DNA from: Desulfobacca acetoxidans DSM 11109
GTDB lineage: Bacteria; Desulfobacterota; Desulfobaccia; Desulfobaccales; Desulfobaccaceae
Assembly: GCF_000195295.1 (NCBI RefSeq)
Contig: NC_015388.1
Location: forward strand, 310,001 to 374,000
Length of the DNA stretch: 64,000 nt
Direction of reading: 5' to 3'
The translations under genes were made by a program, and so were the position numbers. Below, one piece after another: positions 10,302 to 13,000 of the stretch. Position 1 is the first letter of the stretch. Each line of letters begins with the position of its first letter. A model generated the notes under the pieces. It searched no databases. It saw nothing but the letters and a program-made list of their open reading frames with translations, and was not told the origin of the DNA.

Positions 10302-10412
10302 TCAGGAACTGATTAAGGCGTCAAGATATTGACGGAAGAGGTTGAGAGATACAGCATAAGGGGAATACTGGCCGATCAATACCCGCTCACCGTTGCTAAT
10401 TGAGAATTTCAT
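10302..10412 (-). CDS. Possible 36-residue peptide coupled to the antiporter gene
   Basis: A frame from ATG 10410-10412 to a TGA at 10302-10304 overlaps the last 17 bases of the antiporter gene. The product includes VLIGQYSPYAVSLNLFRQYL, which looks protein-like and amphipathic. I do not recognise it. It could be translated by coupling to the upstream gene or be a fragment of an older gene. Length alone does not exclude chance. Confidence 0.25.
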   Translation of the reverse strand: MKFSISNGERVLIGQYSPYAVSLNLFRQYLDALISS

Positions 10413-12309
10413 CTCTTTCAGCAAGTTTGGCCACTGCTACCTCTTTGATCACAGCTTCTTCGCCTTGAAGCAGGCGCTCTACAACAGGCAGCAGTTGGAG
10501 GGCGGTGGCGACATTGGGACGTAGGACAAAGTCCGCCCCCGCAGCATATAACTCCAGAGCCTGGGAATTGCTTGTGCCGGTGACGATAATTCTGGCATTG
10601 GGAGCAACCGTGCGTATTTCACTAATGAGTTTCAGGTTGCTGGTTCCCACGAGGATGTCATCGGTAATGGTGGAAATGGCAATTTTGGCATGTTCCAAGC
10701 CAGCGTGGTGCAAGGTCTGCAGATTGCTGATGTCGCCATAAAACACTTTAACCTGGCGGGCTGCTAACCTGCGGTATACTCTAGGATTAAAGTCCACTAC
10801 CACCAGTTTATTCTTTAATTCCGGCTTGATTTCTTCTATTTCGGCTAGGAAAGCACTGGCTACCCGAAAAAAGCCGAGCAGGGCGATTTCTTTCGGCTCC
10901 TCCAGGGTTGATTCTTCCATCTGGCCGCGCATGGCCTTGAATCCCAGAGCTACCGCCACCTTACCTAACGCATTCTGCAGGTTGTTGCTGTATTTGATCA
11001 TGTACGTAGAGGCAATGGAGGTGATGACGAAGACAAAAATAATCAGGGTCACGATGTCTTGACCGATGTGGTGGTACTCCGGCTTCTTGCCGATAACTAC
11101 GATCACCAGGGCGAATTCGCTGAGTTGGGAAAGATTGATGGAAGTGAGCAGGCTTATCCGATTGCCGTTTTTCAGCCCGTAAAGAACGGGAAAAATAGAA
11201 AGAAAGCGGGTGACCACCAAGAACCCGGATAACAGCAGGGCGATGCCCACTAATCCCAATTTGTCCAAGGGATTGGGGATTACCATTCCCAAACCGACAA
11301 AAAAGAGGGTAATAAAAAAATCCCGGATATTAATGATCTTACCGATGATATCCAGGTTATAAGGAAAGGTCGAAATGGCCACCCCGGCGATGAGAGCCCC
11401 CATTTCCATGGACATACCTAAATCGCTGGCCAAGCCGACAATAAAAAAACACCACCCAAGTGAGGCTACCAGCACCAGTTCCGGCAGTTTGGCGATTTTC
11501 CGGAAGATGAGCCGGAGGACATATTTACTGGCCAAAAAGGTAATACCCACCAGGAAAGCGCCTTTGGCAAAGGACCAGAGGACTACCAAGATTTGCGGAT
11601 CCGCCAAATTTGGCTGTAGCCCGAGAATCACAATGGCCCATAGATCCTGAAAGATTAACACTCCGATAGTTAGCCGGCCAGCCAAGGTATCGAGTTCGAA
11701 TTTTTCGTAGAGCAGTTTAACCACAATGGTAGTGCTGCTGATAGCCAAACAGGCGGCCAGGTAGAGAAGGTCATAGCGGCCGCCCACTATTTTGACTCCA
11801 AGGATTTCATATTCCTGAGGGGTGGCAACCTGAAAAGTAAAACCCAAGAGGAAGAGAAACCCCAACCCCATCGCAACGCAGATAATGAACTGAGAGCAAC
11901 CTGTAAGAATGAGTGACTTACCGGATTCCCTGATCTTTTTCAGGTTCAGCTCCAGGCCGATCATAAACAGCAACAGAATCAGGCCGATTTCGGCGATGGT
12001 GGCGATATCATCTTTATCCTGCACCAGGGCGAACCCGATTCGCGGCCCGATGATCACGCCGGCAGCAATATATGCCAGAATCAATGGTTGCTTGAGTACC
12101 GTAAAGAGATAAGCCATGACCGTGGCGGCTAAAATACTGACCCCAATGTTTGATAAAAGACCATAGTCGGTCTGGCTTTCGCTTGCCCAGAGAACTGCGG
12201 GATGCAGCAGGATAAGACCGATAACCAGAAGGCTGGCTGACGTCAAAGGGGTCTTTAACCGAGGACGGGGGAATATATTTCTCATGTTGAATCGGTATGG
12301 CAACTTCAC
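10396..12309 (-). CDS. Kef-type monovalent cation:proton antiporter with C-terminal TrkA-N domain
   Basis: 637 residues. The N-terminal CPA2 antiporter domain has about a dozen membrane segments (to about residue 440), with the LILLLFMIGLELNLKKIR signature and the FQDLWAIVILG segment. The C-terminal cytoplasmic NAD-binding TrkA-N domain (about 465-600) contains IALLGFFRVASAFLAEIEE, VVVDFNPRV and VFYGDISN. By family it exports K+ or Na+ against protons under ligand or redox control. The first glycine-rich turn is GFFRVAS rather than the classical GxGxxG, so nucleotide binding may be altered. It probably stands alone, with a possible small coupled peptide downstream. Confidence 0.88.
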   Translation of the reverse strand: MKLPYRFNMRNIFPRPRLKTPLTSASLLVIGLILLHPAVLWASESQTDYGLLSNIGVSILAATVMAYLFTVLKQPLILAYIAAGVIIGPRIGFALVQDKDDIATIAEIGLILLLFMIGLELNLKKIRESGKSLILTGCSQFIICVAMGLGFLFLLGFTFQVATPQEYEILGVKIVGGRYDLLYLAACLAISSTTIVVKLLYEKFELDTLAGRLTIGVLIFQDLWAIVILGLQPNLADPQILVVLWSFAKGAFLVGITFLASKYVLRLIFRKIAKLPELVLVASLGWCFFIVGLASDLGMSMEMGALIAGVAISTFPYNLDIIGKIINIRDFFITLFFVGLGMVIPNPLDKLGLVGIALLLSGFLVVTRFLSIFPVLYGLKNGNRISLLTSINLSQLSEFALVIVVIGKKPEYHHIGQDIVTLIIFVFVITSIASTYMIKYSNNLQNALGKVAVALGFKAMRGQMEESTLEEPKEIALLGFFRVASAFLAEIEEIKPELKNKLVVVDFNPRVYRRLAARQVKVFYGDISNLQTLHHAGLEHAKIAISTITDDILVGTSNLKLISEIRTVAPNARIIVTGTSNSQALELYAAGADFVLRPNVATALQLLPVVERLLQGEEAVIKEVAVAKLAERDEILN

Positions 12310-12691
12310 TGAACCTCCAGGGTTACCTTGTTAAAACCTAATTATCCACTTTTGTTATGGCTTATCGAAAGCGGTCAAAAACAAAGCTGTAGCCATCGGT
12401 TACAGGAATAGAGGTAATCTGCTACCAGTAGGAATAATATTGCTAATTTATTTTGATTATTTGAATATTTTGTCTTAACAGGTTGATGCTGTCAACTAAC
12501 TAGTGCCCATCCGGAAACTGCGGCGGTGCCCTTTGCAGCGCAAACGGAAATACGGAAATCTTGTTTGTTGCGGTGTTACCCCGCTACAAGGGATTACCCC
12601 AAAAAATCAAGGACGTTCCGGATGGAGACTAACTAGGAGTTTTGTTGGAGCGATCAATCTCTGGAGCCACGCCAGCAAGATATTGCATCCG
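12310..12691. other. 382-base gap containing a MITE-like element
   Basis: Promoter region of the antiporter, then the element at 12504-12627. Nothing else recognised. Confidence 0.4.
12504..12627. mobile_element. MITE-like element with terminal inverted repeats and a 9-bp direct repeat
   Basis: CCATCCGGAA at 12507-12516 is exactly inverted as TTCCGGATGG at 12616-12625. The 124-base block is flanked by ACTAACTAG at 12495-12503 and again at 12628-12636, which looks like a target duplication. No transposase frame is present inside, so it would need to be moved in trans. If the true target is only CTAG, an IS5-like source is possible; the 9-bp reading would suggest another family. Confidence 0.6.
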
Positions 12692-13000
12692 CTACGAAAG
12701 CCGGAATCTGATATCTTTTATAACGGTCTCACCTAATTGCTGCTGCATTGTGGTCAATACCCTGGATTTTAAAAAATGCAATTCCTGCATCAAGGGATTG
12801 GAGGTCACTTCGATCCAAAGGGTTTTATTCCTGAAATCGACTAACCTGGCGTGCTGGCGGAGGTTTTCTCCCACCGTCTCCTCCCAGACCTGGCGCAAAC
12901 GAACCTGCAGGGCGAGCATGGGGAGATCTTTAGGCTTGAGTATCTTTTTCAAGACGTCTTTAATAAGCGCCGGTTCACGGTCAATCGAGCGTTTTGACAT
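12692..13000 (-). CDS. DUF721 / DciA-like protein
   Basis: About 102 residues from ATG 13000 (an in-frame start at 13075 would add 25 residues that do not look like the family). The core is LALQVRLRQVWEETVGENLR followed by HARLVDFRNKTLWIEVTSNP and LMQELHFLK, the DUF721 pattern. DciA proteins help load the replicative helicase DnaB in bacteria that lack DnaC. A GAAAGAG site lies about 9 bases before the chosen start. It appears single. The helicase-loading role is established only for better-studied relatives. Confidence 0.75.
   Translation of the reverse strand: MSKRSIDREPALIKDVLKKILKPKDLPMLALQVRLRQVWEETVGENLRQHARLVDFRNKTLWIEVTSNPLMQELHFLKSRVLTTMQQQLGETVIKDIRFRLS

Follow-up and report, generated by a model that had tools for sequence, protein, structure and literature searches.

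Positions 12503-12629 of the window hold a 127-bp block that we identify, with high confidence from its sequence, as an ISNCY-type MITE flanked by a 6-bp duplication of its target. The window is the whole 64,000-nucleotide stretch analysed (G000:C1:310001-374000), part of the single 3,282,536-base contig of Desulfobacca acetoxidans. We read the element as an ordinary MITE, assigned here to the ISNCY/ISDol1 group: it is short and gene-free, it carries terminal inverted repeats (TIRs) and a target site duplication (TSD), and it occurs in multiple, dispersed copies. The features of the locus are listed below.

10396-12309, minus strand: KefB-like cation/proton antiporter gene (PF00999 and PF02254), start 193 bp from the element
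12497-12502, no strand: left copy of the TSD, TAACTA, read from the sequence with the 6-bp register taken from other elements
12503-12629, plus strand (arbitrary orientation): whole MITE, 127 bp, GTGCCCATCCGGAAAC...CGTTCCGGATGGAGAC, delimited by the register of flank matching copy by copy
12503-12517, plus strand: left TIR, GTGCCCATCCGGAAA, matching the right TIR at 12/15 positions
12518-12614, plus strand: gene-free interior, from the alignment of 7 copies
12615-12629, minus strand: right TIR, GTCTCCATCCGGAAC when read inward, from sequence comparison with the left TIR and the IS ends
12630-12635, no strand: right copy of the TSD, TAACTA, read from the sequence with the 6-bp register taken from other elements
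12692-13000, minus strand: dciA (PF05258), stop 62 bp from the element, with a chosen start codon in an ORF open to 13075

Structure and genomic context of the element

The original prediction described 10-bp inverted repeats and 9-bp direct repeats around a block without a gene, and this description proved accurate. Exact copies of CCATCCGGAA lie at 12507-12516 (+) and 12616-12625 (-), enclosed by exact direct repeats of ACTAACTAG that stand 124 bases apart (12495-12503 and 12628-12636), and no listed ORF of at least 80 aa overlaps 12503-12629. Elsewhere in the window CCATCCGGAA has two further matches, each with one mismatch. This is the single place in the window where exact 10-bp inverted repeats (up to ~170 bp) sit inside an exact 9-bp direct repeat, and the arrangement occurred in none of 20 shuffles of the window, which were mononucleotide shuffles only.

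We aligned the window MITE with six full-length siblings. In this seven-copy alignment, the interior consensus holds a G+C-rich imperfect palindrome, GTAGGGGCGGGGTTACCCCGCCGCTACAAGGG, of which the window copy carries a shortened and worn version. The first 10 bases of the left TIR are those of the ISRm17 tip, GTGCCCATCC.

The element is placed after the stop of dciA and before the start of the kefB-like gene, both of which are on the minus strand. We consider it improbable that the MITE has been domesticated and now serves the kefB-like gene as a promoter or insulator. A predicted promoter-like pair, TTGACA-17-CAAAAT, does stand upstream of that gene on the minus strand (12495-12467), starting one base outside the left TSD, but this position is outside the element, and the two promoter-like sites found are near the chance level (shuffle mean 1.0, sd 1.0).

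Length of the target duplication

The 9-bp repeat had been taken as the duplication itself; this length, and a later estimate of 8 bp, were abandoned once many copies had been compared. In a per-position test on 47 elements, the two flanks matched above permutation at five of the six duplicated positions (p<=0.036); the sixth (p 0.19) hardly varies owing to target preference, and none of the nine positions beside the duplication matched above permutation. As 25 of the 71 automatic pairings had been removed from this set by hand as chance and L011 had been added by hand, we repeated the test under a fixed rule without manual choice, and the outcome was the same.

The rule-based set comprised 30 related elements with exact ends from 93 loci, including the IS of L148 described below and excluding the window copy. 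Flanking repeats were exact at 6 bp in 11 elements and at 7 bp in one, and never at 4, 5, 8, 9 or 10 bp. Matches at 5/6 positions or more were found in 21 of the 30, whereas 20,000 permutations gave 5.7 on average and 14 at most, and the other nine matched at only 4/6 flank positions or fewer. The permutations exclude mere target preference as the source of the flank matching.

Judging by the other elements, which have them in common, the first base G and the last bases AC are conserved tips of the element itself, and the flanking AC and G that stretch the window repeat to 9 bp are a coincidental match. The duplicated part is therefore TAACTA, 6 bp and not 9. The target consensus, Y-TARYTA-R, is a palindrome, and a single copy can therefore show a repeat longer than the true duplication.

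We accordingly give very little credence to the reading that the MITE was recently inserted by a 9-bp-TSD family and that its duplication truly spans 9 bp. IS4/IS10/IS50-like elements have a TSD of this length, and exact ACTAACTAG does flank the window copy on both sides, but in this one copy only; the register test, in which other elements match at the central six positions alone, largely refutes it. Moreover, no facing pair of MITE-type ends was seen around any of the 10 PF01609 loci of the own genome, and these transposases were rejected as partners. The recency that had been read from the exactness of the repeats is not supported either: the window copy differs from the consensus of the remaining copies by 8.7% plus 7 gap columns, and its nearest siblings are 15% off.

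Copies in the own genome and across the order

In the own genome, 13 pieces match the block at E<=0.001 with 77-100% identity, the window copy included, and two of these are one interrupted copy. The seven full-length own copies that were aligned differ pairwise by 15-26%, and there are longer and partial copies besides. The window copy measures 127 bp, compared with 130-132 bp in the other full-length copies. Among the 59 genomes searched, the own one (G000) included, DNA similarity to the block was found in the own genome, G002 and G023 only, and the plasmid collection gave no match to the 142-bp block.

Additionally, the GTNYYCATCCGGAAA tip yielded 200 matches (99 forward, 101 reverse) in the 29 genomes of the order, versus 2 for a reversed control pattern. 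At least one match was present in 18 of the 29, with 61 in G005 and 32 in G018; several genomes have a single match, and such singles may be chance. A genome-wide scan with CATCCGGAAACTGYGGYGG returned 15 stretches, 14 of which were taken as chance: 13 had no mate end within up to 4 kb, and one (L050) had a mate end 2.7 kb away with a mismatch. Only L054 (G023 C275) combined a matching interior with a mate end at a distance of ~110 bp. In viral contigs, the only mate of the one CATCCGGAAACTGYGGYGG stretch was 3.5 kb away and had a mismatch; this stretch was likewise taken as chance.

Elements with the same ends and different interiors were also seen. In L108-L141 (G018, G023, G026, G025 and G005), the interior is of the CCCTCCCCC...GGGGGAGGG type, as against the GTAGGGGCG type of Desulfobacca, and the interiors of same-ended elements look interchangeable. 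One element, at L145 3639-3674 (G006 C157), is 36 bp long and barely more than two facing ends (TGTTCATCCGGAAACGGCAGTTTCCGGATGAACA), with flanks that are alike by eye at 5/6 positions. Two of the same-ended elements, L111 and L115, each seem to harbour a nested repeat of a different kind, with GCGCTAACTTAAG-type ends. As a tentative idea, for which we would claim no more than modest odds, one ISNCY-type transposase family may drive modular miniature elements across Desulfobaccales, with the 15-bp ends and the 6-bp TARYTA kept constant and the interiors swapped for the common hairpin repeats of each genus, down to the near-ends-only element of 36 bp.

Insertion sites in relatives

We compared sites carrying the element with the corresponding places in relatives. 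An own sibling copy of 285 bp (L016 2003-2287) is flanked by bioA and by a gene for an NtrC-type regulator; we named both genes by reading their sequences. In two congeners the element is absent here, and the ntrC-bioA spacing is shorter by 291 bp in G002, equal to the 285+6 expected, and by 296 bp in G003. These spacings were measured between the ends of BLAST matches, where the flanks are poorly conserved, and the MAG G002 probably includes misbinned contigs. Within the sister genus, the same gap is 241 bp shorter in G006, 123 bp shorter in G004 and 13 bp longer in G005. By eye, a different element of this kind seems to have inserted independently in the ntrC-bioA gap of G005 (L231, G005 C23), and it was not seen in the congener G006.

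At a second own site (L040, beside a gene read as pth), the spacing was 105 bp shorter in G002, 85 bp shorter in G003 and 35 bp longer in G001, against the 170 bp expected, and these three relatives offered no clean empty site. For the window copy, no syntenic site was seen: in all three congeners (G001, G002 and G003) the kefB-like gene is preceded by ~1.3 kb that hold other genes, and neither dciA nor cysS was found in that interval in any of them.

That the block is instead a fixed regulatory or structural repeat (a REP/BIME-like palindrome or an RNA element) spread by duplication, with the flanks as part of the repeat, is most unlikely: the flanks do share the consensus TARYTA and the interior does hold a palindrome, but the flank variants are copy-specific with left equal to right within a copy, the sibling copy is missing in congeners, Rfam covariance models gave no match at E<=1 in 12300-12800, the RNA fold is unremarkable (z only -1.7 to -1.9), and there is no terminator-like site.

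A proposed partner insertion sequence in the same order

A full IS with the ends of the MITE is present in G011, a genome of the same order. This IS (L148 317-2002) is 1686 bp long, has the ends GTTCCCATCCGGAAAC and the TSD TAATTA, and encodes a 453-aa transposase that matches the ISNCY family model NF033593 with 487 bits (cut-off 325), and also PF01609 and PF05598. A 6034-bp derivative in G016 C8 (L149 1743-7776) has the ends GTTCCCATCCGGAAAC and the TSD TAACTA. TIRs are thus common to the MITE and to full ISNCY-family IS (L148 and L149, and the tip of ISRm17), and the length and target of the IS duplications are the same as for the MITE, namely 6 bp in both L148 and L149. Of four IS-length copies seen whole, two showed no clear TSD (L193, 3/6 positions; L195, 2/6).

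Besides its transposase, the L149 element contains two overlapping ORFs with GmrSD_N and GmrSD_C pieces (PADLOC HEC-06), a proteasome-like protein and a second transposase, of the IS1 type. It thus resembles an IS that carries cargo.

An ISNCY transposase match was found in 7 of the 29 order genomes (G000, G002, G011, G016, G018, G023 and G025). G018 accounts for 18 matches, none of full length, some stopping at contig ends and some with stop codons. In the own genome, searches by end patterns, PF01609 and the ISNCY transposase revealed no intact partner. The one ISNCY transposase match found there covers 101 codons (1467914-1468216), so no source is seen in the same genome as the MITE. One pair of ends with one mismatch, 2.9 kb apart (2879422/2882339), surrounds ordinary genes and was rejected. 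The phage collection gave no match to the full IS. The own genome also carries, at 1853427, 1351926 and 1627148 (L069, L070 and L071), three IS that are alike, each with a 458-aa open frame and the TIR ACTAGAGTTTAGAATCT.

Identical flanking strings were observed across MAGs of different genera (L114/L124, L193/L199 and L126/L154), and contigs of the G018 type have probably been cross-binned into G002, G023 and G026. Given this probable misbinning, the intact transposase gene of G002 may sit on a misbinned contig, and we do not take it as evidence for the genus.

The original prediction of a non-autonomous, MITE-like element is borne out. An IS with matching ends does exist, in a related genome, and a sibling copy is missing from two congeners; in the own genome these searches revealed no intact IS of this kind.

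Proposed origin and significance

In the origin that we propose for the ISNCY-type MITE, a transposase from a full IS, acting in trans, would have bound the ends of the element and excised or copied the 127 bp. The target would have been cut with a 6-bp stagger and the element joined between dciA and the kefB-like gene, and repair would then have produced the two copies of TAACTA. Because the MITE and the IS have just ~16 bp in common, we only infer mobilisation in trans. The source IS may since have been lost from the strain apart from one fragment, and with that loss the element is probably immobile at present.

With this assignment, a repeat that had been an orphan in the genome of a reference sulfate reducer is linked to one particular family of transposases, and the target rule of the ISNCY-type family in Desulfobaccales is given as a 6-bp TARYTA. 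It also illustrates that, for direct repeats around elements that favour palindromes, the duplication may be overestimated when it is read from one copy. In practice this is of use for annotating the short intergenic repeats of Desulfobaccales, and no surprising biology is shown.

Comparison with known systems

The transposase gave matches in 197 plasmid records, and among the best 25 of these 197 the annotated ones were ISRm17. The transposase of the L148 IS shares 51% aa identity with the one copy of ISRm17 compared. A passage of PMC10194956 places ISRm17 in the ISDol1 group of the ISNCY family (printed there as 'ISDoll of the ISCNY family').

Three of four ISRm17-annotated loci have the ends GTGCCC(A/G)TCCATAAAC, with tips GTGCCC(A/G)TCC, and two of these three show the 7-bp TAGTCTA on both sides. 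The third (L242) abuts a second copy and shows no exact repeat, and no such ends were found in the remaining locus (L239). The GTGCCCATCC at the end of the window element thus recurs as the tip of the ISRm17/ISDol1 group. ISRm17 of Sinorhizobium meliloti thus resembles the window element in its tips, and its TA-ended palindromic flanking repeats are like those of the MITE. In contrast to the MITE, it is a full IS with a transposase, the bases after its tip are ATAAAC and not GGAAAC, and its duplication, legible in 2 of the 4 loci, is 7 bp long as opposed to 6 bp here.

The sections of six articles consulted on ISDol1, ISNCY MITEs, ISRm17 and Desulfobacca (PMC8147514, PMC4549789, PMC11448079, PMC3156406, PMC10194956 and PMC1525189) do not describe the element, and an earlier report of an ISNCY MITE is possible; the MITE in the section of PMC11448079 is assigned to ISL3.

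The L148 IS of G011 is like the MITE in its GTTCCCATCCGGAAAC ends and its 6-bp TSD (TAATTA), but it carries a 453-aa transposase and shares nothing but its ends with the MITE. Like other bacterial MITEs, the window element is short, gene-free and multi-copy and has TIRs, a TSD and a partner IS; what sets it apart is its partner family, which we assign to ISNCY/ISDol1.
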